A stretch of DNA of 28,203 nt from a virus, in the IMG/VR virus record IMGVR_UViG_3300036770_007775, positions 1 to 28,203 of that record. One strand, given 5' to 3'. Below the pieces are notes generated by a model that worked only from the letters and a program-made list of their open reading frames with translations, searched no databases and had not been told where the DNA came from. The first letter of the stretch is position 1; each line of letters begins with the position of its first letter. The translations under genes and the position numbers were made by a program. Below, piece after piece: positions 1 through 28,203 of the stretch.

Positions 1-481
1 ATTGTGCGATGCGTGTGTACTTGGAGAGTCCTATGAGTTTTTCTGCAGCCAGAATGCCAATATAAGCAACGCCAACAACGGGTTGGTGATGATGACTACA
101 CATACTGCGAATTTCACTGCGAACCACGAGCATGCCCTCATAGCGGTCCTCGCTGTCGTTAGGGAACGCTGTACAGTCGGGTGCTGGATCATATCTACCC
201 TCCATTATTTCGTTGAAGTACATCTTGGCCAAGCGGCGTGCTGTGCCTTGGCTGTTGGGATCTGTTTCTCTATCGATCAAGAGTCGATCCAGCACCAGTT
301 CAAATGCTTCGGTTGCTTCGTCGATGAGCACCTTTTTCATTTCCGGGTACACATAGTCTGAGACATTGTCTCCAGCCCAGAACCGTTTGCCTTGCTCTCG
401 CATGTTCTGCCGGATGGCATCACTGAGGTAGGTACCTTTGCTTTCTTTTGGCTGGGCGTATTCGTTAAATTTTGCTATCAT
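1..481 (-). CDS. folE: GTP cyclohydrolase I (FolE), C-terminus cut by window edge
   Basis: I translated the minus strand from ATG at 481 to the window edge, giving 160 open residues. FolE converts GTP to dihydroneopterin triphosphate, the first step towards folate and 7-deazaguanine (preQ0) bases. The segment SMCSHHHQP (about residues 126-134) matches the FolE zinc and active-site motif (SMCEHH in bacterial enzymes), with C128, H130 and H131 as ligands. It is followed by an IGLSKYTRI segment typical of the family. Upstream, TARRLAKMYFNEIMEG (about 80-95) matches the conserved TPxRVAK helix. The last third, including the second zinc cysteine, lies outside the window. The next gene upstream ends at 553, leaving a 71-bp gap with a promoter-like motif. 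With the QueD-like and DpdA-like genes in this window, a role in DNA-base modification is more likely than folate supply, but that is inference. Confidence 0.9.
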   Translation of the reverse strand, partial: MIAKFNEYAQPKESKGTYLSDAIRQNMREQGKRFWAGDNVSDYVYPEMKKVLIDEATEAFELVLDRLLIDRETDPNSQGTARRLAKMYFNEIMEGRYDPAPDCTAFPNDSEDRYEGMLVVRSEIRSMCSHHHQPVVGVAYIGILAAEKLIGLSKYTRIAQ

Positions 482-552
482 TTATCGTTCTCCGAGTTAT
501 GGCGGTGGATCGCCGTTGTTAAAAATGATTGTAGATGATATTTAGACCGTTG
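482..552 (-). promoter_or_regulatory. Intergenic leader of folE with CTAAATA late-type promoter motif
   Basis: This is the only clear gap in the left 13 kb. On the minus strand CTAAATA lies at 545-539, 58 nt before the folE start. The motif resembles the T4 late promoter TATAAATA and recurs in other gaps of this window. Between it and the start is GGCG-ATCCAC-CGCC, which could form a short 4-bp hairpin. CGGAGAACGATAA directly before the ATG supplies a GGAG-type ribosome site. Promoter function is inferred. Confidence 0.45.
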
Positions 553-1176
553 TCAAGAAACAATTTCGATTTCTCGGCAATCTGGATAATTGAAAAGTTC
601 AGCCGTCTGATAGCGGAAAACACCTGCACGCAATAGATTACTGCCAGCGATCGCATCCTCGGGCTTCATGTAGTAATGGAATCCCAATTCAAAAGTTTTT
701 TGTTGTATCCAAGGACTGAAATTGAAGATATCGCGTCCATCATATCTCATACGGTTGGCCCGATCTGCTATCTGCGGATCATCGGTCAGCAGGCATCCGC
801 CACGACCTATATCTAGAGGCTTGGTGCGTCCAAAACTCAGGCACTGTATGGTACCAGGTTGATACATGTCTCGATCCAGCCTGCGAGCCGAATCCCAGAT
901 GTTGGTATCCTCAAATTGATAGCACCCTTGCTGATACCAATCCAGGTCCGAGAGTTGATACTGTATGCCTAACTTATGCATGGTCATCAACACACTGAGA
1001 TAAGTGCGTGAAGGAAATCTGGTACGACGATGCCCTGTGATACGGAACGCTATTTCTATGGCATGCGTACAACAATCAGTGACTATGGCGTAAGGAGCAC
1101 CGGTCCATTCAGCTAACTCTTGCTCGAATTGTCTTATCGCTTCAAAGGGATTTGTGTAGTCTCTAAGAGATTTCAT
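553..1176 (-). CDS. Short DegT/DnrJ/EryC1/StrS-type aminotransferase-like protein
   Basis: The 207-residue product resembles the PLP-binding domain of sugar aminotransferases of the DegT/StrS class. WDSARRL (D95) sits where the family has its cofactor-contacting D-A-A motif. SFGRTKPLDIGRGGCLLTDD carries the expected Schiff-base lysine (K119) followed by the GEGG-like turn. An N-terminal TGAPYAIVTDCCTHAIEIA matches the phosphate-cup region. Family members are usually 350-400 residues, so the C-terminal domain is missing. No stretch before the next gene looks like a broken remainder, so this seems a genuine short phage form rather than a frameshift. It overlaps the DUF6165-like gene by ATGA and ends the sugar cassette. 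It may act on a nucleotide sugar made with the GalE-like enzyme. The substrate is unknown, and loss of the small domain may mean altered or no catalysis. Confidence 0.7.
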   Translation of the reverse strand: MKSLRDYTNPFEAIRQFEQELAEWTGAPYAIVTDCCTHAIEIAFRITGHRRTRFPSRTYLSVLMTMHKLGIQYQLSDLDWYQQGCYQFEDTNIWDSARRLDRDMYQPGTIQCLSFGRTKPLDIGRGGCLLTDDPQIADRANRMRYDGRDIFNFSPWIQQKTFELGFHYYMKPEDAIAGSNLLRAGVFRYQTAELFNYPDCREIEIVS

Positions 1177-1538
1177 CGTTGTTCACTGAGATGATCTTGT
1201 TTGATTTCTCTTACCGCACAGCCTAGTTTTTCGGCCATGGCATTTTTGAGATTGATCCTGATGTTGTTTTTGTCGCGTATCTGGATGGCCCTGCGACCGA
1301 TCTCCTCCAGTGGTAGTTCTTGCTCTTTTCCACTCTTGAGTTCTTTTTCCAGATCCCAGATCTCATCATGGATCTTTTGCAGACTGGATAATTCCTGGTG
1401 GATTTGCTGTAGATCTAGAACCTGTATCTGCTGATGATAGAAAGCCAGTTCATCTTGGTTGCCACCGTTGGTACGACGCCATTTCACTGTGGCGATGGCA
1501 TAACGATCCAGCAATTCTATCAAAGGAAAAACGATCAT
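1173..1538 (-). CDS. DUF6165-like helical protein
   Basis: The 121-residue, mainly helical protein opens with PLIELLDRYAIATVKWRR and closes with IQIRDKNNIRINLKNAMAEK followed by an acidic/basic tail. This follows the layout I recall for DUF6165 proteins: a (GEL)(I/L)DK..ILEIK opening, a glutamate-rich central helix, then NDxRxxIKxxIN near the end. That family is commonly found beside glycosyltransferases in bacterial and phage surface-sugar clusters, but no activity is established. The middle (about residues 45-75) is a likely coiled coil rich in Leu, Glu and Lys. The gene overlaps both neighbours by 4 bases and so is translated together with the aminotransferase and radical SAM genes. An accessory or scaffold role in the pathway is a guess. 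Confidence 0.6.
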   Translation of the reverse strand: MIVFPLIELLDRYAIATVKWRRTNGGNQDELAFYHQQIQVLDLQQIHQELSSLQKIHDEIWDLEKELKSGKEQELPLEEIGRRAIQIRDKNNIRINLKNAMAEKLGCAVREIKQDHLSEQR

Positions 1539-2563
1539 ACGTAGAGTTTTTCTATCTTCTTGGGATCGTCCAATATATCTTGGATGGTATTATTGGTAGC
1601 ATTGGGGCGACAAGGTTGGCACAGTGACACATTGGTCCGTGCGTATATATCATGATGATCAGCCGACATCCAGAGATCACGGAAATCTCCTTGATCCCAC
1701 CGTCCGATCGTAAATCTAGGATTGCCTTTGTTATCACAGCACACATAGATCATGCCATCGGCGCAGAATACCGGGAAATGATACATCTGATGGCATCTCT
1801 GATAGCGACGAGGTTGTGTTTTGTTGTCGTTGATCCAGTAAGGAACACCGGTACGATCACTGGCCTGCCGGATCCACTCACGCAGTTCTGCTGTGATGAC
1901 ATGTGCCTGGCCTTGATAGATCACCGGGCGGAAATACAGCATACGACCATGTATGTTTTTCACATAATCAAATAGATCATCCATGGCCTGTTGATTGTCG
2001 TTGTAGGGATTGATCAGGCATTTGAAATCCACATTGACCCCGGCCGCGATCAGTTCTCGGGCATTGTCTCGCACCCGCCCAAACAGACTCTTGGCCGTGA
2101 GGCTGCGCCTGATCTTTTCGTAGAGTTCTTCGGTACCAGCATCGATGTCGATCCCGATCCAGGCCAATTTCTGCAATTTAGCAGCCGGAACGGAGTCCAA
2201 TAATCGATCCAGTTTGCTGCCGTTGGTAGTGATTGATGTAAGGAACCCGTTGTCGATGGTATGCTCGATCACATGTTCATACCCTCGCAACACTGTGGGT
2301 TCGCCCCCACCGGGATAGGTTATGGTATGAGTGGTACCATAACTGTTGGGACTGTGAGACCTCCAACTGGCCAATTGATCTATTAGACGGATGTATTCGG
2401 TGTAGTGTTTTTGTACCGGAGCGATGCGTCGATGTTCTGCAGAATTACAGTAGTAACAATCTTGATTGCAGATATTGGTCAGATCGATATCGACCTGGGC
2501 GGGCAGCAGGATCTTGTGATCCTGGTTCCTCATCCAATGTACCAGTTCTGCTTCTCGATACAT
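1535..2563 (-). CDS. Radical SAM protein with C-terminal cysteine-rich (SPASM/twitch-like) region
   Basis: The 342-residue protein has the canonical radical SAM cluster motif CNQDCYYC (C32, C36, C39), then YPGGGEPT (about 83-90) for SAM binding and an ITTNGS turn near 111-116. These are the hallmarks of enzymes that cleave SAM to the 5-prime-deoxyadenosyl radical. Extra cysteines at 257, 267, 275, 276, 315 and 318 (CxDG..YVCC, CxxC) resemble the auxiliary-cluster domain of SPASM or twitch enzymes, which act on peptides or sugars. It starts one base upstream of the GalE-like stop and overlaps the next gene by ATGA. The context of epimerase, glycosyltransferase and aminotransferase suggests a sugar or glycoconjugate substrate. 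It lacks the short-domain layout expected of QueE. The exact reaction cannot be read from sequence. Confidence 0.85.
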   Translation of the reverse strand: MYREAELVHWMRNQDHKILLPAQVDIDLTNICNQDCYYCNSAEHRRIAPVQKHYTEYIRLIDQLASWRSHSPNSYGTTHTITYPGGGEPTVLRGYEHVIEHTIDNGFLTSITTNGSKLDRLLDSVPAAKLQKLAWIGIDIDAGTEELYEKIRRSLTAKSLFGRVRDNARELIAAGVNVDFKCLINPYNDNQQAMDDLFDYVKNIHGRMLYFRPVIYQGQAHVITAELREWIRQASDRTGVPYWINDNKTQPRRYQRCHQMYHFPVFCADGMIYVCCDNKGNPRFTIGRWDQGDFRDLWMSADHHDIYARTNVSLCQPCRPNATNNTIQDILDDPKKIEKLYV

Positions 2564-3517
2564 CTACTTGGTATACCATTGCCACGCATGACTGATCATG
2601 TCATCTAGACTGAAACGTGGTTTCCATCCGCTGAGCCTGGTCCATTTTTCTGCACTGGCCGTGAGCACGGCAGGATCTCCCGGTCGACGAGGCCCCACAG
2701 CGATTTTGACCTGACGACCTGTGATACGCTCGGCCGCGGTCACTATCTCGCGATTGCTGGCTCCTGCTGTAGTGCCAAGATTAAACACACCGGAAGGCAG
2801 AGCTCGGTCTATGGCCAACACGTGTGCATCAGCGATATCTTCCACATGCACATAATCTCTCACGCAGGTGCCATCGGAGGTTTCATAATCTTCGCCGTTG
2901 AGAGTGAACTCCTTGTCATCGCGCAGGCTTTCCAGCACTCGGGCAATGATGTGCGTGGCACCAGGTCTCTGTCCATGGCGGCCTCGGCTGTCGGCTCCGC
3001 AGGCATTGAAATATCGGAACGCCACGAAGTCCATACCATAAGCCCGCTGATAGGCCTGCAACATCCATTCGATCATGAGTTTGGTTTGGCCATAGGGAGA
3101 AATCGGTTCACAAGGATCCACTTCGGCGCAAGGCGTCATCACGGGTTCGCCATAACAGGCAGCACTGCTAGAAAAGATCACGCGGGTATCTAGTTTGAGA
3201 TCATGGATACGATCTAATAGGGTCTTGGTCTTGATGAAATTATTATGATAGTAATCTGCGGGCCGACTCATGCTGGGTCCTACTAGGCTGGTACCAGCAC
3301 AATGCATCACAGCATTGGGGCGTACCTCATCTAACAGTTTGAGTCCGCTGGGTTTGGCAAAATCTTCCTGATAGAATCGATCGCAAGTGGATCTTAGATG
3401 CACGGGCAATGCCACTGTGTCCACACCTACCACAGTGTAGCCAGCATCTTTCAATCGCAACGCAGTTTCGCCACCGATGTATCCTGACATTCCGGTGACC
3501 AGTATAGTCTTCTTCAA
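2564..3517 (-). CDS. NAD-dependent sugar epimerase, UDP-glucose 4-epimerase (GalE)-like
   Basis: The 317-residue protein is an extended short-chain dehydrogenase. TGMSGYIGG (8-16) is the NAD-binding glycine loop. The catalytic set is S118 in FSSSAACYG, then Y142 and K146 in SPYGQTK. FRYFNACGAD and the later VRDYVHVEDIADAH are strongly GalE-like, favouring UDP-glucose/galactose or the N-acetyl forms as substrate. Length is close to the usual 320-340. Translation appears to start at TTG (3517-3515), because AGGAG lies a few bases upstream and no better in-frame start is near. It follows the glycosyltransferase by 2 bases and precedes a radical SAM gene. A phage-encoded epimerase here probably makes an activated sugar for the adjacent transferase, used on phage or host surface structures (inference). 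Confidence 0.88.
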   Translation of the reverse strand: MKKTILVTGMSGYIGGETALRLKDAGYTVVGVDTVALPVHLRSTCDRFYQEDFAKPSGLKLLDEVRPNAVMHCAGTSLVGPSMSRPADYYHNNFIKTKTLLDRIHDLKLDTRVIFSSSAACYGEPVMTPCAEVDPCEPISPYGQTKLMIEWMLQAYQRAYGMDFVAFRYFNACGADSRGRHGQRPGATHIIARVLESLRDDKEFTLNGEDYETSDGTCVRDYVHVEDIADAHVLAIDRALPSGVFNLGTTAGASNREIVTAAERITGRQVKIAVGPRRPGDPAVLTASAEKWTRLSGWKPRFSLDDMISHAWQWYTK

Positions 3518-3519
3518 GA

Positions 3520-4731
3520 TTACTCCTCTATTTTGACTACATGATATTTGGCAGCCGCTACCTGATCTCTATAGCGATTACCGGCGCGATTCCATTGCTC
3601 TCCCTCACCTGTGATGATGTCAACGATGCGATCGATAGTGCCATCGTTCCAATCCGAGATCAGGCCCATGTTGTGATGTGGCTTGTCCAGCAAAAGTTCC
3701 AGTTTGGTGAATGCATCATCTATAGACCAAGGAACGTAAAGTCGGTTAGGGTCATTAGCAAAAGTCTCAGGGAAACTACGGTAAGCAGGGTATAGAACAT
3801 TACACCCAAGAGTATCTGCTTCCGAGACTGTGTTGGAAACCCAATCCTGGAGGGCGCAATTAAAGAGCACGCGAGTATCATTGAGCAGATTATAGTAATC
3901 ATTTTTCGTGAGATTTTCGTAGATGGTAAGTGCACCTAGATCAGCCAATGTACGGGCTTGATCTACGTAGTCAGGATTATTGGATCGCAATGGCCCACCC
4001 TGGAAGATAGCGAATTCGATATGATCTCGATGTCGTCCTTGATTACGATACATCTCGATCAGATCCATGAAAAAGCCCGGTTGTTTCTCTTGGTCGAACC
4101 TGGCAGCGAATCCCACACGCATCCGACGTTGATCGAAAGGTCGGACGTTATCGGCACCTCCGATACGCTCCAGCACCTCTGCCTTACCAAACGCCAGCCC
4201 TGAGATGTTGTAGATAGGAGCAGTCCAGCCCGCGATGCGCATGTGGGCTACCATCTCTTCATTGGTGGCCAATACCCGCACATTGGGCATGAGATTCACC
4301 ATCTTTTCAAAAGTCGACATCCAATGCGCCATACCCCATACATGAACAAAATCGTCAGGGTCAATGGCTTGAGCAAGACAACGCACAAAGATTTTAGGAC
4401 GAAGATCCAATGGGATTTGGTCCATGATATAAGCAAGGCTTTCAATGCCCGGCTGGAACATGTCTTCAAAGTAGACCACATCTTCACTGGTGACATCTCC
4501 CTGTTGCATGAGCCTCACGAGGTTCATCATCTGGCTCATGGCAAAATAACTGCGGCCGTGTGCATCGAGTACCTGGCCCACAGAAATCTTCTTGCTGTTA
4601 TCGAGATTCAGCCCGGGCACATACACAACATCAAGACCTCGGCGCTCAAACACACGCCGGTTCCATTCAGTGAGTTGAAGAGTGTATCGGGACTCGTATG
4701 ATTCGAGCCCCATATAAAATAACCGACGCAT
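3520..4731 (-). CDS. GT-B fold glycosyltransferase
   Basis: The 403-residue product looks like a two-domain GT-B glycosyltransferase. The C-terminal half begins at RVGFAARFDQEKQP (about 205-218), typical of GT4-type enzymes. It continues with EFAIFQGG, then LTIYENLTKNDYYNLLNDTRVLF (about 268-290) and NTVSEADTLGCNVLYP (about 300-314), the usual nucleotide-sugar pocket with its conserved acidic residue. The N-terminal half is a Rossmann-like acceptor domain without signal peptide or membrane segment, so the protein is cytoplasmic. A strong GGAGG ribosome site lies 7 bases before ATG. It directly precedes the GalE-like gene, suggesting that the epimerase supplies its donor. Acceptor unknown: DNA base, lipid or protein are all possible. 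Confidence 0.75.
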   Translation of the reverse strand: MRRLFYMGLESYESRYTLQLTEWNRRVFERRGLDVVYVPGLNLDNSKKISVGQVLDAHGRSYFAMSQMMNLVRLMQQGDVTSEDVVYFEDMFQPGIESLAYIMDQIPLDLRPKIFVRCLAQAIDPDDFVHVWGMAHWMSTFEKMVNLMPNVRVLATNEEMVAHMRIAGWTAPIYNISGLAFGKAEVLERIGGADNVRPFDQRRMRVGFAARFDQEKQPGFFMDLIEMYRNQGRHRDHIEFAIFQGGPLRSNNPDYVDQARTLADLGALTIYENLTKNDYYNLLNDTRVLFNCALQDWVSNTVSEADTLGCNVLYPAYRSFPETFANDPNRLYVPWSIDDAFTKLELLLDKPHHNMGLISDWNDGTIDRIVDIITGEGEQWNRAGNRYRDQVAAAKYHVVKIEE

Positions 4732-4735
4732 TTGA

Positions 4736-4942
4736 CTACCTCCGGTTGTCTAGATGCCACATGTCCTTGGCAAACTTGCCTTGCAAGAACTTGTTGAACT
4801 GTTGGTAAGCGTAGGATTTCCAGTTATAGAGATCCTTTTCGTCGTAACGATAACCAAAATCCTGGCAGAATCTCAGATATTGCTCGAGGTCATCAAATAT
4901 CTGGGTTACTCGATGGTTGGGTTTGAACGTGGGCTTGCCCAT
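4736..4942 (-). CDS. Small conserved phage protein of unknown function
   Basis: The 68-residue product is rich in aromatic and charged residues (IFDDLEQYLRFCQDFGYRYDEKDLYN), with no membrane segment. From memory, short proteins with this F-D-L-x-x-Y-x-x-F-C pattern and an FGYxYDExDLY core occur in T4-like cyanophages, but I cannot name a function. It lies 12 bases after the QueD-like gene and 4 bases before the glycosyltransferase, whose ribosome site overlaps its end, which supports real expression. Fold and partners are unknown. Confidence 0.6.
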   Translation of the reverse strand: MGKPTFKPNHRVTQIFDDLEQYLRFCQDFGYRYDEKDLYNWKSYAYQQFNKFLQGKFAKDMWHLDNRR

Positions 4943-6338: not shown

Positions 6339-6537
6339 CGTCTATCTCCACAGATTCGTGATCATGTTCCCATTGCTTACGCTTCAGTTCTGAGATCTGG
6401 TCTTTGAGGCTCAATTTCTGTCGTTTCAGGGTCTGCATGGTGGCGTCCGTGAAGCGACCGGTACTTTCCATTCCTCTTATCTGTTTGTCCAGGCTTTCGT
6501 GCATGGTCTCTAGATGCCGGATGCGATTTTCGTACAT
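6331..6537 (-). CDS. YdcH / DUF465 family small coiled-coil protein
   Basis: The 68-residue helical protein has the DUF465 signature: RIRHLETMHESLDKQI at the start, then a short turn (TGRFTDATMQ) and LKRQKLSLKDQISEL. The two helices should pack as a hairpin or coiled coil. The family is frequent in alpha- and gammaproteobacteria and in some of their phages; its molecular role is not established. The start overlaps the dpdA stop by one base. A host-derived origin is plausible, giving a weak hint of a proteobacterial host. Confidence 0.75.
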   Translation of the reverse strand: MYENRIRHLETMHESLDKQIRGMESTGRFTDATMQTLKRQKLSLKDQISELKRKQWEHDHESVEIDDE

Positions 6538-8066
6538 TATACACTGTCCTCTAGGCTGTCAAGTCGAGATTGATCAAGTTCTTCTTGTGTGTCTGTTTGG
6601 TCTTCTTCCACATCAAAAAGCGTGTTAAACTGGGCATGGCTGTTCCATACACGCTTGCCGGTGAATCCCCGGGTACCTATCACTCTTTCCCATACTTTAG
6701 CATGATCGTCGATTATGGCCAAGGATTTTGAGCGATCTCGTGCAGCAAAGATTCGATCTACCACTTTGCGCACATCGTAGTCCGAATTGGTAGGATGCAC
6801 CATCATATCTGGACAGATGCCCTGATCATACTGGCGGTTAGCACGTTGCACTGCTTCGATGTGCATCCAGACATTGTGCCCCATCATGAGAGCATATGAA
6901 AAACTGTCCCAGGATGTGCGACCTTCTTTGCCGATCTTGTTGAGATCACCGGGTCGATATATGCACACATCGCGTATCTTCAATCTGGCAGAGACGGGAG
7001 AATTTTCAAACTGCGAGTGGATGCCATCCTGTGTGACAGCATCGCGGAACAGTCTGTTGTCTGTGGCATACTTCTTGTCGTCCGCGGTGGGGCTCATCTG
7101 ATAAGACCATTTTGATCGATTCTGGGTCACGATACTATGATACAACTGTCCATTGGCTGTGGCCAGGAACGGTGAAGCACAATCGAAACTGATGGTGAAA
7201 TGAGGGTTGGCATACTGTCTCACTGCTCGTTGTATGTCCGTGAGCAGCACTGCCCATTCCAGTTTAGAAGTGCCCAAGAAGTGCATCCAATCATGCACAC
7301 CTGGTTCCAGCAAGCCATCGTGTATGAGGTTCACCAGTCGCTTCAGCACAAGATGCACATCGCACATGTTCTGTCCGCCCATGCCCCAACCGTTGAAATG
7401 GCGGTCGGGATATCGATTGGGATCCGAGTAGTGTTTCATGAGATCATACCAGTGGTCGGCTTCGGCGTGATTGCCGCCCTGCAACACGTTCAGGATCTTG
7501 GTGTCACCATAGCGATTAGCGATCCAGTATTCGTTGTTGTATTTTGTAGCAGTTACAGCATCATCATAACTGAAGATACCACAGGCAGCAGCAGCCACAG
7601 GATCTCGGAATGTCCATGTGGGTATGTCCATGGTCATGCCATAGGTGGCAATACCCATCTGCCACTTCAGTACCTTCTCCCGCTGTGCCTCAGCTTTCCG
7701 GTCAGTGAAGTCAGCCCAACGCCCGGGCCACACACCCTTGGCGATCTGGAATCCACCCGAGTCCGCCAACATCACAGTGTTGGGATCACGGTTCCTGATC
7801 ATGTCTTCCTTTGGGTCCGGCTTGTTGAGATCTAGATTGGCATGACCTGCTGAATACAGACTCCAACGATAAGGAAACAGACCTTTCTGTGGATTCAGCC
7901 AGTTCATCATCTCCATGTCCGGTATACCTTGAGGCATGCGGCTCTGTTCTACATACTGGCTGGATCGCTGCCGACCTATGTAACTACCGTAGAATGAACT
8001 GATGGCCGGCAGGAAAATGGCATAATCCTGCTGTTTGGCTGTAAGATCGTCGCGGTCTTGTGCCAA
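6537..8066 (-). CDS. dpdA: DpdA-like tRNA-guanine-transglycosylase-family DNA base-exchange enzyme
   Basis: The 509-residue protein carries the motif series of tRNA-guanine transglycosylases. These are ADSGGFQ (101-107, general acid/base D102), a D147 segment after it, NVLQGG (193-198), WGMGGQNMC (227-235, like IGGLSVG) and HFLGTSKLEWAV (262-273, like MGVGTPEDL). FDCASP (294-299) gives nucleophile D295. I see no CxCxxC zinc site near the C-terminus, unlike bacterial Tgt, so this is a divergent member. DpdA enzymes of phages and islands swap guanine in DNA for a 7-deazaguanine such as preQ0. Its position directly after the sliding clamp, with polymerase upstream and QueD-like and folE genes downstream, fits action on replicating phage DNA and not on tRNA. 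Protection from host restriction is the expected benefit. The tRNA alternative cannot be excluded. Confidence 0.82.
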   Translation of the reverse strand: MAQDRDDLTAKQQDYAIFLPAISSFYGSYIGRQRSSQYVEQSRMPQGIPDMEMMNWLNPQKGLFPYRWSLYSAGHANLDLNKPDPKEDMIRNRDPNTVMLADSGGFQIAKGVWPGRWADFTDRKAEAQREKVLKWQMGIATYGMTMDIPTWTFRDPVAAAACGIFSYDDAVTATKYNNEYWIANRYGDTKILNVLQGGNHAEADHWYDLMKHYSDPNRYPDRHFNGWGMGGQNMCDVHLVLKRLVNLIHDGLLEPGVHDWMHFLGTSKLEWAVLLTDIQRAVRQYANPHFTISFDCASPFLATANGQLYHSIVTQNRSKWSYQMSPTADDKKYATDNRLFRDAVTQDGIHSQFENSPVSARLKIRDVCIYRPGDLNKIGKEGRTSWDSFSYALMMGHNVWMHIEAVQRANRQYDQGICPDMMVHPTNSDYDVRKVVDRIFAARDRSKSLAIIDDHAKVWERVIGTRGFTGKRVWNSHAQFNTLFDVEEDQTDTQEELDQSRLDSLEDSV

Positions 8067-16718: not shown

Positions 16719-16792
16719 GCAGGACTGTAGGGATTCACAGGGCAGTCGGTGCCATCATCATCGGGCCATACCGGATATTGATCTTCGTTCAT
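16715..16792 (-). CDS. Tiny coupled ORF, 25 residues
   Basis: ATG at 16792-16790 overlaps the stop of the tagged Cys/basic protein as ATGA, and its own TGA overlaps the next ATG as ATGA. The peptide is acidic and proline-rich (MNEDQYPVWPDDDG...NPYSPA) with one cysteine. Exact coupling on both sides without any untranslated gap argues for translation. It may be a real micro-protein, or only a way to carry ribosomes to the next gene. No homologue is known to me. Confidence 0.4.
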   Translation of the reverse strand: MNEDQYPVWPDDDGTDCPVNPYSPA

Positions 16793-17358
16793 TTACCTGC
16801 CGCGGCCAAGGCCGCTCCTTTGTTGAAACTGGGACTCCAGGAATTGGGGTTGCGTTGTTTTCTTTGGTACCATTCGTACCCGGCCTGATGTCCACTGCAG
16901 TCCACTGTACATTGGCTGCCTTTGAAAGTCAACTCGTCCAGTTGTTCTTCGTCTACTTTGGTAGACACACGCACTGGTTTGCGGCCGCCACCGCCTACAT
17001 CTCGGCCGGGCTTGCCGGCCTGGCTCTGTGCAGATCTTTTGCGACGCACAGCTGATGATTTTTCTTTGTCGGTCATGGCAGCGGCTTTGGCCGCAGGCAC
17101 GCACTTGGCATAGCCTTTCTTCTCCCCCGAAGTTCCACATTCAGGATGCCCTCCGCCTTTCTTTTTCTTTCCGATATTGACCCACTTCTGTCGGAACCAC
17201 TTGCGCAGCCCGCCTTGATACTCCTCGTCTACAGACTCCTGAGATTTTTTACGACCTTGGCAGTGAGCACGCTGACTGAATCCCTGCGGACGATCGCAGT
17301 TGATCGAACGCTTGTATTTTTCAGACCATTTTTCTGATACGAATTCGTGTGCCCTCAT
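16789..17358 (-). CDS. Tagged basic, cysteine-containing modular protein (putative internal head protein)
   Basis: I chose ATG 17358, 2 bases after the preceding stop, giving 189 residues; the longer frame adds an unlikely N-terminus. The protein is a mosaic. It has a leader MRAHEFVSEK (1-10) and a unit NCDRPQGFSQRAHCQGRKK (20-38). A third unit is LRKWFRQKWVNIG (51-63) with CGTSGEKKGYAKCVPAAKAA and SAVRRKRSAQ (74-112). A C-terminal unit QCTVDCSGHQAGYEW with SPSFNKGA closes it (149-183). It is very rich in Lys, Arg and Gly. I recall each unit in varying combinations in marine phage proteins. The leader resembles the T4 internal-protein capsid-targeting peptide. A DNA-binding protein packed in the head is my best inference; zinc binding by the paired cysteines is possible. 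Confidence 0.6.
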   Translation of the reverse strand: MRAHEFVSEKWSEKYKRSINCDRPQGFSQRAHCQGRKKSQESVDEEYQGGLRKWFRQKWVNIGKKKKGGGHPECGTSGEKKGYAKCVPAAKAAAMTDKEKSSAVRRKRSAQSQAGKPGRDVGGGGRKPVRVSTKVDEEQLDELTFKGSQCTVDCSGHQAGYEWYQRKQRNPNSWSPSFNKGAALAAAGK

Positions 17359-17360
17359 TG

Positions 17361-17771
17361 TCAGTCTCGGGTGATCGGACCACCTTCGACCCAGGCATCG
17401 CAGGTGCGTTTGGCAGCACATTTGAATTTTAGGAATTTGCAATAGCCAAGGTCTCCGGCATCGATGGTATCGTATGGGTCCGACCCAGGCTCGGCTCCGA
17501 TGCCCTTCGCGATGCAATCTAACATATCAGGTGAAACGTCGAAAGCGGCGCAATTGCCGCAAAGAGATGTCCGAGCCTGGTCGGGATCGTCTAGTTGCCA
17601 CATGTCGGCTTTGGCTTGCCAGAATTTCCGGTTGGGCTCGTTGGGATTCAGCGGACCATATCCATGCTCTTCGATTGCCTTCTGGCGATTTTTTAGATTG
17701 AGTTCGATGCTGCGAGTGGCCGGGGGGCAATCTTTGGCCACTGCCTCCAACAGATTCATGAGATCTCTCAT
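17361..17771 (-). CDS. Cysteine-motif protein, possible iron-sulfur or zinc protein
   Basis: The 136-residue protein begins MRDLMNLLEA, then has NLKNRQKAIEEHGYGPLNPNEPNRKFWQ... and a C-terminal half with cysteines in CGNCAAF, DMLDCI, GYCKF, KCAAKRTCDAW. The spacing recalls high-potential iron-sulfur proteins (CxxC..C..C) and I remember similar phage proteins; metal type cannot be decided. LLEA at residues 7-10 fits the (L/I)xE-A/G/S site cut by T4-type prohead protease, so it may be processed in the capsid. ATGA overlap with the upstream 43-residue gene. Likely virion-associated by context. Confidence 0.6.
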   Translation of the reverse strand: MRDLMNLLEAVAKDCPPATRSIELNLKNRQKAIEEHGYGPLNPNEPNRKFWQAKADMWQLDDPDQARTSLCGNCAAFDVSPDMLDCIAKGIGAEPGSDPYDTIDAGDLGYCKFLKFKCAAKRTCDAWVEGGPITRD

Positions 17772-19507: not shown

Positions 19508-20251
19508 TCAGGCTTCTTCTATGTAGTCTTGTGATTCCGCTGCGGATCTGCGACGAGCACAGAACATTTCTACGGCCATGGTTGCCTCGTCGAGATTGGC
19601 AAACTTGGTATTTGATTGTTTGTTCTTGATTGACACGCGGAAGCCGTCGTCTTCGTTGCCGGTGATCTTGATCTCGTGACCATCATCTGTGGTCAAGGTC
19701 TTTACGGATTTGATCTGATCTATGTCTTTTGGTATGCGATCCTTGAGGTCAGGATCCTTCTTTATAGCAGAAGCCACATCCTGCAGATAGTCACCCAAGC
19801 GACGTTTCATGGTCGCCAGCACGTCTTCCGTAGCCGTGTCTCGCGCTTCGGCGAATGGTTTCCTGTCCGCCATCTCCGATCTATCCCCACCGCGATCTCG
19901 CAGTTGATCATGCACCATGTTTACATAAGCACTCACATCCGATGATCCAATCTCTTCGAAATCATCTGCATCTTCTGTCACATCATCGATGACCTGCATC
20001 AGGAACTCCACACCGTATTTTACGATCCATTCTGGATGCTGGTTCACGATCCTGCGTGTCACGGCTCGCGCCATGGGGTTGTTTTCTTCCTCGCCTTCGC
20101 CCACGAGATAGCCCAAGGTGGCATTTTTTCCTGGGTAAGGTCCTGACAGTTGCGGAGATGTGTTGGCGGGTCGGAACAAGGCAGGCAACTGCTTGACAGA
20201 ACGTTGCGCAGCGTCTAGGTTCTCCAGGATGGTATAGATGTCGTGGCTCAC
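19508..20251 (-). CDS. Conserved hypothetical protein, probable late/virion-associated
   Basis: The 247-residue soluble protein begins MSHDIYTILENLDAAQRSVK, a helix followed by a proline-rich linker and KNATLGYLVGEGEE. The middle is acidic (DDVTEDADDFEEIG), and the end has a strand pair (GHEIKITGNEDDGFRVSIKN) before ANLDEATMAVEMFCARRR. It couples by ATGA to the Dps-like gene upstream. I remember related sequences from marine myoviruses but no function. High acidity plus helices would suit a prohead core protein; this is inference. Confidence 0.55.
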   Translation of the reverse strand: MSHDIYTILENLDAAQRSVKQLPALFRPANTSPQLSGPYPGKNATLGYLVGEGEEENNPMARAVTRRIVNQHPEWIVKYGVEFLMQVIDDVTEDADDFEEIGSSDVSAYVNMVHDQLRDRGGDRSEMADRKPFAEARDTATEDVLATMKRRLGDYLQDVASAIKKDPDLKDRIPKDIDQIKSVKTLTTDDGHEIKITGNEDDGFRVSIKNKQSNTKFANLDEATMAVEMFCARRRSAAESQDYIEEA

Positions 20252-20691
20252 TCTCGGTCCTCCTTGAGATAGGCCTTCATCATCCAGCCGTGTTTGCCCT
20301 GTGCATCGATGCGCGAAGCCAAGAAGTCCATGATACCTTGCTGATTCTCTGCTTCTGCCGAAGCGAAGCAGGTATTGAGAAGATCGATCAGGGTCTGGTT
20401 GTCGGCCAAGAGTTCTGTGAGCATGAGACGCGCCCGCGGCACGCGGGTCTGGCCCTGTATCTGTGTGAGTTCCGCAAACCTCTCGAAACTGCCCGGAGTG
20501 TAGTCGCCCAGGATGCGTATGAATTCTGCTGTCTGGTCGATGCCGTTCTCAAACACTTCGTCATAGATTTTACCAAAGAACCGGTGCAGTTGGCCAAAGT
20601 CTGACCCTTCCACGTTCCAATGGAAGAACTGGGCCTTGATCACGTAGGCATACTGTGTGGCCAATAGAGTTTTCAAATCATCCGCTAGCAT
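20248..20691 (-). CDS. Dps-like ferritin
   Basis: Starting at ATG 20691 (MLADDLKTLL), the 147-residue protein fits the Dps family. FFHWNVEGSDFGQLHRFFGKIYDEV carries H24 and H36, and GIDQTAEFIRILG carries D52 and E56. Together they match the inter-subunit ferroxidase ligands of Dps (H, H, D, E). The rest is a four-helix bundle ending KHGWMMKAYL. Dps proteins form 12-subunit cages that oxidise and store iron; bacterial ones also bind and protect DNA. No long basic N-terminal tail is present, so DNA binding is not indicated. The start lies 11 bases inside the upstream small gene. Presence among virion-type genes suggests protection of DNA, host or virion from peroxide, or an iron store. Alternative start at 20718 is less likely. 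Confidence 0.82.
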   Translation of the reverse strand: MLADDLKTLLATQYAYVIKAQFFHWNVEGSDFGQLHRFFGKIYDEVFENGIDQTAEFIRILGDYTPGSFERFAELTQIQGQTRVPRARLMLTELLADNQTLIDLLNTCFASAEAENQQGIMDFLASRIDAQGKHGWMMKAYLKEDRE

Positions 20692-20854
20692 GTTGTTTCC
20701 GTTTCTGTACAGGGGCACTGTTACGATATTTAGCAGGTTTTACAGATAGTTCTCTGGTTATCACAGCACCCAAAGGCTGCGCGATCGGTGCCATGCCACC
20801 GGCTACGCTGGCGCCTGTTGAAGCGTTTTCTCGTATGAATTCACTGGCTCTCAT
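20678..20854 (-). CDS. Tagged small protein MRASEFIREN..., 58 residues
   Basis: This ORF is short but well supported. Its ATG (20854-20852) overlaps the preceding stop as ATGA, and it overlaps the Dps-like start by 14 bases. It begins MRASEFIREN, the same leader as three other genes here, then a glycine/alanine-rich flexible stretch (STGASVAGGMAPIAQPLGAV) and a basic end (VQKRKQH). A leader plus flexible basic tail would suit a peptide packed into the head. The site EFIRE-N roughly matches T4 prohead protease consensus except for the residue after the cut. I recall similar tiny proteins with an IAQPLGA core in marine phages. Confidence 0.6.
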   Translation of the reverse strand: MRASEFIRENASTGASVAGGMAPIAQPLGAVITRELSVKPAKYRNSAPVQKRKQHASG

Positions 20855-26362: not shown

Positions 26363-26742
26363 CGTGGTCTCCTTCCGCTGACATCCAGCATGGTGCGCGC
26401 TGCTTGGTTGATGTTTTTCATGCGCGTTTCACAGAAAAAACGGCTGGCCGCAGCATCGCCTTGATACCTTTTGGCAAGGTCTTGGGTCATGGTAACCATG
26501 TTGGTGTTCATGGCCTGTATCTTTTCGTTGTTGGGCAGGCTGCTGCTGTACACCTGCAACCATTCCGCACGCAGGTTGATGGCCTGTGCATGTGTGGCAA
26601 TCTCTGGAGTGCGACACAGTTCCGAGCGGCTCATGACCACGAGGTCTACTATGGCATTCTGCTCCTGAGCATCAAACTGGCTGGGGAATAGCGCACAACC
26701 CGTAAGCATGACGCTGACAAAAAATATCGAGAGTCGTTTCAT
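26359..26742 (-). CDS. Lipoprotein, 127 residues
   Basis: ATG 26742 overlaps the preceding stop as ATGA and opens a type II signal peptide (MKRLSIFFVSVMLTGCALFP) with lipobox LTGC, C16 being lipidated. The longer frame from 26847 lacks sense. The mature part is helical, with two further cysteines (LCRTPE, FFCETR) possibly bonded, and a basic end (SGRRPR). It would be anchored in the host membrane facing the periplasm. Superinfection immunity, lysis or envelope roles are all possible; the adjacent genes do not decide. Confidence 0.7.
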   Translation of the reverse strand: MKRLSIFFVSVMLTGCALFPSQFDAQEQNAIVDLVVMSRSELCRTPEIATHAQAINLRAEWLQVYSSSLPNNEKIQAMNTNMVTMTQDLAKRYQGDAAASRFFCETRMKNINQAARTMLDVSGRRPR

Positions 26743-27806
26743 TTTTTTCTTCCTGACTTCATATTTGCACACCAATGGTACATTTTGCCTCGCTCGCCAC
26801 CATATTTTTTTGCACGAGCACGCAGATCTGTCACACTTCCTTTGCATGACGCACCTGCACGTTTCACACGACCTGGTCGGCTCTTGCCCGACACCTTGCC
26901 ATCCGCGAAGTTTTCGTCTAAGTCATCCACAGGTCGCCACGCTGGAATATGGGTCATGCCAAGTTCTCTGGCGGCAAAGGCACGATGATTACCGTCAATG
27001 ATAGCACCAGCAGGATCTACTACTATGGGTGATTGATTGATCTTTCGCTCAGGATCGCGTTTGACAGCATCCACTTGATCAAGATCGATATCACTGTCTG
27101 TATAATCAGCGATGATAAGATTGCTCAATGGTATTTTAGTCAACTGCCAGCGTGGATACATCAAGACTTCGCGATTTATACGGAAATCATGATGTTTGCG
27201 CTTCACATAGTCTAACACAGCATCGGCCGGGGTGTGGCCATCGGCCAAGTTTTCTTCGATGTCTTGCTGATCGATGCCATAGATCTTTTTCAGTCGCTCT
27301 ATGGCAGATGCCACATTGTTCCAGCGGTATAGCACAGCGATGCCACCATCGGCCTGCCATGCGTTGATGTATTTTTTGAAGTCGTCTACCAACACATTGG
27401 ACTGCCCACCCGTGGTAGCGTAGCGTTGCTTCTCGCTGGTAAAGATAGCGTCCTGCGATGTGCCAGGATGATGCCGATCTAGCCAGATACGTTTGCCTTC
27501 GATGCTGGCTTCTTCGTTGCCGCGCAAAGGTGCAGACAGCACTGTGTAAGGTATTTGATTGTCGCGCAAGAATGCTATCAGTTCAGCAGCACCTGGCAAT
27601 ACCGGCAAAGTAGCAAAGAATCTGCGCACGAAATCAGGACCTCGTTGATTGAGATCTGAGATGCTGGCCTCACGGGCCGCGCGATCACCGATGTCCTTAT
27701 AGCGTTCTTTGCCAAACAATTTCGCCCAGGCAGTGAAGAAGTCAGCCTGCACTCCGTCCATGTCTAGATAGAGATGTGGTTTTGATATGAATTCTTTGGC
27801 TCTCAT
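26739..27806 (-). CDS. Fusion: tagged HAD-type nucleotidase + ParB-like motif + basic cysteine tail
   Basis: The 355-residue protein has four parts. Residues 1-10 are the leader MRAKEFISKP shared with other genes. Residues 11-175 form a HAD phosphatase like 5-prime(3-prime)-deoxyribonucleotidases. LYLDMDGVQADFF gives D15 and D17, VLSAPLRG is motif II, and VLVDDFKKYI holds the motif IV aspartates. Residues about 222-293 contain IIDGNHRAFAARELG, the ParB/sulfiredoxin-like nucleotide-binding motif. Residues 318-355 are a basic unit (GASCKGSVTDLRARAKK, MYHWCANMK) seen in other phage proteins. ATG follows GAGGTG and overlaps the upstream stop. A virion-packed enzyme that handles nucleotides or acts early in infection is an attractive inference. 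Confidence 0.72.
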   Translation of the reverse strand: MRAKEFISKPHLYLDMDGVQADFFTAWAKLFGKERYKDIGDRAAREASISDLNQRGPDFVRRFFATLPVLPGAAELIAFLRDNQIPYTVLSAPLRGNEEASIEGKRIWLDRHHPGTSQDAIFTSEKQRYATTGGQSNVLVDDFKKYINAWQADGGIAVLYRWNNVASAIERLKKIYGIDQQDIEENLADGHTPADAVLDYVKRKHHDFRINREVLMYPRWQLTKIPLSNLIIADYTDSDIDLDQVDAVKRDPERKINQSPIVVDPAGAIIDGNHRAFAARELGMTHIPAWRPVDDLDENFADGKVSGKSRPGRVKRAGASCKGSVTDLRARAKKYGGERGKMYHWCANMKSGRKK

Positions 27807-28203
27807 CGATCACCTCTCACTCGATCAAAGAAAGTGGGCTCGGGTCTACCCTGTACTCGACCATGACGCTGGTGCTGGCCTGCGTAGTCATAGAAGCGAT
27901 CCACCACGTCAAACGCAGGTTCAAAGAACACTGCCTGTGGATTCAGTCCGCCCTTCAATATGCCCACACGGCGCTGGCCTGGAGGTGCGTCTCGGACTTC
28001 ACGCGGATCTCGGTGACCGATAGGCTGCAGCCAAGCATCGTCGCGTTTTTTAACCAGCCACACATATGGAAAGTTTATGGCATACTGATCCTGGCCGCTT
28101 TGCCGTAGATACTCAGCCAAGGGATAGAACCACAGGGCTCTACGGCCGCTACCGCGACTGGCTGTGCCCAGCCCGCTCACAGTGAACTCGGGGTCATCTA
28201 CAT
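27803..28203 (-). CDS. Partial unknown protein, N-terminus outside window
   Basis: The frame is open from the window edge (reading VDDPEFTVSGLGTASRG) to the stop at 27803, 132 residues plus stop. Its true start lies beyond the window, so the internal GTG at 28180 should not be taken as the start. The visible part is rich in Arg, Gly and Pro, with AINFPYVWLVKKRDDAWLQPIG and PAFDVVDRFYDYAGQHQ as structured segments. No motif is recognised. The stop overlaps the fusion-protein ATG as ATGA, so both belong to one transcript. Likely a virion or packaging-related protein by position only. Confidence 0.55.
   Translation of the reverse strand, partial: VDDPEFTVSGLGTASRGSGRRALWFYPLAEYLRQSGQDQYAINFPYVWLVKKRDDAWLQPIGHRDPREVRDAPPGQRRVGILKGGLNPQAVFFEPAFDVVDRFYDYAGQHQRHGRVQGRPEPTFFDRVRGDR

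Follow-up and report, generated by a model that had tools for sequence, protein, structure and literature searches.

Bacteriophage T4 supplies a precedent for enzymes and small proteins that are loaded into a capsid and trimmed there. Its prohead protease, gp21, cleaves after L/I-x-E (PMC9026906); within the T4 leader, targeting depends on residues 4 and 7 and processing on residues 8 and 10, and a leader bearing Asp at position 10 was targeted without processing (PMC9026906). The packaged enzyme Alt is cut by gp21 at both ends (ITE-6 and LTE-619), with removal of a 63-residue C-terminal piece (PMC5694885). A second precedent is formed by the polyvalent proteins, injected chains of several unrelated domains, which Iyer et al. 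(2017) have already likened to polyproteins (PMC5512222).

Here we describe a minus-strand ORF of the IMG/VR virus record IMGVR_UViG_3300036770_007775 (28,203 nt, its full length referred to hereafter as the window), the product of which, P0001, is best explained as a capsid-targeted cargo polyprotein of a T4-like phage; we consider it probable that the prohead protease would cut such a chain and that its products would be ejected along with the DNA. A megablast search of the whole 28-kb window against cultured phages matched nothing.

Domain composition of P0001

P0001 runs from an ATG start to a stop codon and is ordered as a short leader, a 5'(3')-deoxyribonucleotidase HAD, a ParB/sulfiredoxin-fold domain and a basic tail. 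A slash marks actual or expected cut positions.

26739–27806, minus strand: whole ORF, 355 aa, its ATG overlapping the stop of the upstream ORF 27803–28201
27780–27806, minus strand: capsid-targeting-like leader MRAKEFISK, residues 1–9, by likeness to T4 ipIII/ipII
27273–27776, minus strand: NT5C-type HAD of the 5'(3')-deoxyribonucleotidase family, residues 11–178 (PF06941, phrog_2643, Foldseek, pLDDT >95)
27237–27260, minus strand: predicted prohead-protease site 1, IEE/NLADG, residues 183–190, cut after E185, in linker 180–220
26913–27251, minus strand: ParB/Srx-like module, residues 186–298 (fold about 220–292), IDGNHR at 270–275 (profile and model)
26898–26921, minus strand: predicted prohead-protease site 2, LDE/NFADG, residues 296–303, cut after E298, in linker 291–310
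26742–26912, minus strand: basic tail module, residues 299–355, NFADGK...MYHWCANMKSGRKK (IMG/VR matches; alone behind a leader elsewhere)

The initial annotation had proposed this four-part architecture, and all four parts were recovered, each beyond chance. The full-length AlphaFold2 model displays three confident blocks (about 11–178, 221–290 and 311–350) joined by weak linkers at 180–220 and 291–310, the confidence of which may be depressed by an alignment partly assembled from fragments. No NCBIfam family matched, and the Pfam matches of P0001 include no peptidase (an embedded release peptidase is a feature of some polyvalent proteins).

The assignment of the first domain as a deoxyribonucleotidase-type HAD, made earlier from its DMDG and DD motifs, stands: Pfam NT5C (PF06941) matches residues 12–171 at E=4.8e-8 (33.5 bits against a gathering cut-off of 24.8), phrog_2643 ('5'-3' deoxyribonucleotidase') matches at 9.5e-21, and HAD motifs I–IV are all present (DMDG 15–18, LSAP 90–93, GKRIWL 104–109 and LVDDF 139–143, supplying D, S, K and DD). 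The top Foldseek matches of this block are the human cytosolic and mitochondrial deoxyribonucleotidases (cdN and mdN, NT5C), which have the fold and the four motifs in common with the P0001 HAD at about 20% identity. We hold it somewhat more probable than not that the domain acts on nucleoside monophosphates.

PHROG ParB families match P0001 over about 212–300 at about 1e-5. Because phmmer searches of PDB chains with P0001 and with its ParB part returned only a chance-level HAD match (E 0.12 and 0.069), the PDB was searched with a profile of the module; built from 28 members, across which G-x-H-R is invariant, this profile matches chains of SbnI, SerK, ParB, Noc and Srx (best E=1.4e-5). An AlphaFold2 model of residues 186–298 (pLDDT 88, pTM 0.80) has ParB, Noc, PadC, SerK/SbnI and sulfiredoxin as its best Foldseek and VIA matches. 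The ParB-like domain first suspected from its motif is borne out by all three lines, and the possibility that the region folds as something else, raised at the outset as a check, found no support in the modelled structure. Both the fold and the G-x-[HR]-R motif that delimit the ParB/Srx superfamily are found in P0001, which has them in common with the free serine kinases SbnI/SerK, the CTPases ParB/Noc and sulfiredoxin. Two narrower identities were rejected. Sulfiredoxin carries its catalytic Cys in G-C-H-R, whereas P0001 has IDGNHR (270–275) without Cys; chromosome-partition ParB has a DNA-binding part, and the P0001 module is too short to hold one. A scan with the ParB module alone recovered only 3 close relatives.

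The tail (residues 299–355) is as basic as had been noticed earlier, with a pI of 10.9 and 17 K+R against 3 D+E, and the 57-aa protein that it would form probably binds DNA. It has at least 583 IMG/VR matches; the exact tail was not found in cultured phages at E<0.1.

The leader and its association with virions

The N-termini of T4 ipIII and ipII read MKTYQEFIAE/A, and MRAKEFI of P0001 agrees with them in charge and in EFI, which supports the packaging-type leader that had been proposed. In the related loci that we fetched, the leader motif [RK]x(1-3)[EQD][FLI][LIVM]xE occurs at 91 per 10^4 after Met against about 2 per 10^4 after other residues, a 45-fold enrichment. We regard the P0001 leader as very probably a capsid-targeting sequence. 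The L/I-x-E cut site is absent from its end (ISK/P), where Lys replaces the Glu of the cut position, so that P0001 may be targeted yet retain its leader on the HAD. A Glu cut site does end the leader in five other ORFs of the window (P3 being L/I in four and V in one), and the same holds for most leader proteins in the related loci. These five leader or leader-like ORFs lie between 16789 and 20854:

16789–17358, minus strand: leader ORF MRAHEFVSE/KWSEKYKRSINC..., 189 aa, with a DUF5872-like part
17361–17771, minus strand: leader ORF MRDLMNLLE/A..CPPATR module, a module also found within the polyprotein of relative L056
17911–19506, minus strand: leader ORF MIFTDLFE/N..., 531 aa; [LIVM]xE motifs recur inside it, and DLDE/ is followed by a basic C-terminal module
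19508–20251, minus strand: leader-like ORF MSHDIYTILE/N..., GTG start
20678–20854, minus strand: leader ORF MRASEFIRE/NASTGASVAGG..., 58 aa

The last of these belongs with small leader ORFs of three related loci (L003, L110 and L126), with predicted mature starts NATAGAT.SGS.ATV and NASTGASVAGG; these starts resemble the post-cut sequence predicted for the major capsid protein of a further locus (L163), LKE/NATAGSTAAGNVATL. Among the leader ORFs also lies a Ferritin/Dps-like protein (20248–20718; PF00210 E=7e-19, phrog_3636 'DNA binding protein'), which may be head cargo too. Elsewhere, the window encodes GTP cyclohydrolase I at the record's edge (2–481, PF01227) and a 509-aa ORF (6537–8066) with a DSGGFQ string like that of tRNA-guanine transglycosylases and no Pfam or PHROG match; together these suggest a possible 7-deazaguanine modification.

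The virion proteome published for cyanophage S-CREM2 (PMC10665884) connects the leader with particles. Across all annotated ORFs, with the long tail fibre excluded, the leader is carried by 6 of the 28 non-structural proteins detected by mass spectrometry; among undetected ORFs it occurs in 1 of 94 when the count is confined to those of at least 80 aa (Fisher p=5e-4) and in 3 of 167 when all lengths are admitted (p=3e-4). Enrichment under a looser definition of the leader is weaker (p about 0.01–0.02), and the authors of the proteome regard co-purification as possible (PMC10665884). The detected leader proteins include a SAM hydrolase, a kinase and a cytidylyltransferase. The last has a leader in four cyanophages (S-CREM2, S-SM1, P-SSM2 and P-SSM4), reading MK..F..FLxE/ in S-SM1, P-SSM2 and P-SSM4 and resembling MKKFSEIIE/ of Melnitz; it was detected in virions of S-CREM2 (PMC10665884) and of S-SM1 (PMC3037559). 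A cytidylyltransferase domain also stands behind the leader of a tail-bearing polyprotein among the related loci (L100).

Polyproteins of cultured cyanophages sit within the head/packaging gene cluster: chains that adjoin terminase or capsid genes and have several [LIVM]xE joints occur in S-SM2, Bellamy, DSL-LC02 and P-TIM68. We also observe hypothetical proteins of 600–700 aa in S-SM2, S-CAM9, Bellamy and DSL-LC02 (L184–L187), mostly adjoining terminase genes and built of basic modules with [LIVM]xE motifs between them.

By analogy with these phages, P0001 itself is likely to be packaged, and delivery with the phage DNA, as the initial annotation had suggested, is supported to the extent of a plausible route. 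P0001 might instead be a cytoplasmic fusion enzyme of nucleotide metabolism, in which a dNMP phosphatase is joined to a ParB-like domain that binds nucleotides and the leader has some other role or none; NT5C proteins without a leader are indeed common in phages (for example in Melnitz). We hold this improbable, given the strong tie of the leader to the N-termini of such proteins and to virion detection, and given a ParB partner that can be exchanged or absent.

Module exchange among related loci

P0001 has at least 592 relatives in IMG/VR. In the nearest (L001, 55%), the HAD and tail are kept and the middle is unrelated. The ParB module stands directly behind a leader in three loci (L084, L086 and L104) and the tail in two (L071 and L120), in one of which (L071) the HAD–ParB part is a separate ORF upstream of the leader–tail ORF. 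The fetched loci hold HAD, ParB and tail together in 11 cases, HAD and tail in 16, ParB and tail in 19, and the tail with other partners or alone in 64. Pfam-supported cargo in such chains comprises a zeta-toxin-type kinase, cytidylyltransferase, Cu/Zn SOD, CCA-type nucleotidyltransferase, GNAT and GH19.

Some of these loci deserve separate description. In L073 (2506–4056), as in L076 (2307–3857), a Cu/Zn superoxide dismutase module (PF00080 E=1e-44 on the L073 chain) is chained with two ParB-like domains and the basic tail. In L084, a 1503-aa leader-like ORF (395–4906), in which [LIVM]xE motifs are numerous and some segments look nucleotidyltransferase-like or metallopeptidase-like, lies upstream of the leader–ParB–tail ORF.

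This exchange bears on the earlier proposal that P0001 is one combined enzyme, which would dephosphorylate nucleotides and bind or cut a nucleotide signal, for example against host defence or for dNMP recycling. Both domain types belong to families that bind nucleotides, and 11 other tail-bearing ORFs, plus one that lacks the tail, likewise combine a HAD and a ParB-like domain; the ParB domains so paired are of differing subgroups, however, the order is swapped in L056 (ParB ahead of HAD), and many versions have the HAD only or the ParB only. The HAD, ParB-like and tail modules thus occur apart and recombined, the predicted linkers between them are of low confidence and the borders bear prohead-protease-type motifs. 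P0001 is probably misread as a single four-part enzyme, and the signal-directed form of that reading is very unlikely. As to whether the combination is a widely occurring, described family, the wide occurrence is real (at least 592 relatives) and a described family was not found; the open-access literature contains no description of such polyproteins, and their novelty is provisional, subscription papers and preprints being outside the scope of the search.

Predicted cleavage at the domain borders

P0001 contains only two L/I-x-E motifs, one at each domain border; of within-protein shuffles, 0.15% had a motif no more than 2 residues away from each border (a post hoc test). Comparison of the residues upstream of the tail in 52 dissimilar contexts reveals Glu at P1 in 52/52 and L/I/V/M at P3 in 42/52, against 5–17/52 in the remaining upstream columns. 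For a second, unrelated module (WSEKY; W-S-x-K-Y-K-K-S-I), 12 dissimilar contexts were compared, and in 11 of them [LIVM]xE and one further residue stand directly before it. When module starts were taken from an all-against-all comparison of 332 proteins, 140 of 665 had a nearby site against 87.6 +/- 8.6 at random positions, an enrichment that is significant yet only about 1.6-fold in a test noisier than that of the tail contexts.

A chain that is packaged via its leader and then stays intact, like the polyvalent proteins, would make these motifs chance occurrences or remnants of leaders that had become fused. Phage proteins with several domains are known to be injected (PMC5512222), long fusions are common among the relatives and the P0001 leader lacks a cut site of its own. 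We nevertheless judge this reading unlikely: of the upstream columns, only P1 and P3 are conserved, and a relic leader would be expected to have conserved Phe at P4 as well, which is not the case (ruling out mere leader relics); both motifs fall within linkers; and the modules also exist as separate leader proteins. We judge cleavage of P0001 at both sites fairly probable.

The protease that would perform it, of the S77 family, was not found in the 28-kb window, the record being a fragment. It is encoded on 11 of the 30 contigs of long relatives; the 19 without a match are probably explained by many of them being fragments. Of 12 contigs tested for gp23, 4 have it, the same 4 as have the S77 protease, and major capsid N-termini bear LKE/N and VAE/A motifs.

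Discussion

We favour the reading of P0001 as a capsid-targeted cargo polyprotein. The leader would bring the chain into the prohead core, where a prohead protease (S77, T4 gp21 type) would cut after E185 and E298, freeing inside the head three proteins: the HAD nucleotidase, possibly with its leader, the ParB/Srx-like domain and the 57-aa basic protein. All three would be ejected together with the genome, the HAD to remove phosphate from (deoxy)nucleoside monophosphates and the ParB-like domain to bind a nucleotide or turn one over.

More broadly, marine and freshwater T4-like phages may well possess a general means of delivery by shuffled capsid-targeted polyproteins that are each loaded into the prohead as a single chain, cut by its protease and then ejected into the host, with nucleotidase, ParB/SerK-like, zeta-like kinase, cytidylyltransferase, SOD, GNAT and other enzyme modules; we rate this as somewhat favoured. 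If true, the presence of a leader together with [LIVM]xE joints would serve as a sequence rule for telling which of the many unannotated proteins of the abundant aquatic T4-like phages are injected effectors, would mark the start of each mature protein and would yield a catalogue of cargo enzymes. It would also unite the T4 internal proteins with the polyvalent proteins, the prohead protease acting as the release enzyme.

P0001 and its kind have in common with T4 IPI, IPII and IPIII the N-terminal MK/MR..EFI leader, the L/I-x-E cut motif, a small basic mature product (here the predicted one, the tail) and variable cargo behind a conserved leader. The T4 proteins are single small proteins with one cut, whereas P0001 comprises several domains, including enzymes, and has its cut motifs at the domain borders. 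We do not claim strict membership for it, since the leader cut site is missing, and the resemblance lies in working like the internal proteins and Alt. T4 Alt, an ADP-ribosyltransferase, resembles our proposal as a packaged enzyme cut by gp21 at both ends. It has one cargo domain and an acidic C-terminal piece (pI 4.2) in contrast to the basic P0001 tail (pI 10.9), and homology between the two was rejected on this ground. The polyvalent proteins (PMC5512222; for example DdrB of P1) join several unrelated domains, including ParB-type and GNAT, in one injected chain; P0001 also has several domains in one chain, which would be delivered with the phage DNA. Those described belong to other phage groups and conjugative elements and have embedded peptidases for release; P0001 displays a T4-type leader and prohead-protease-type motifs instead.
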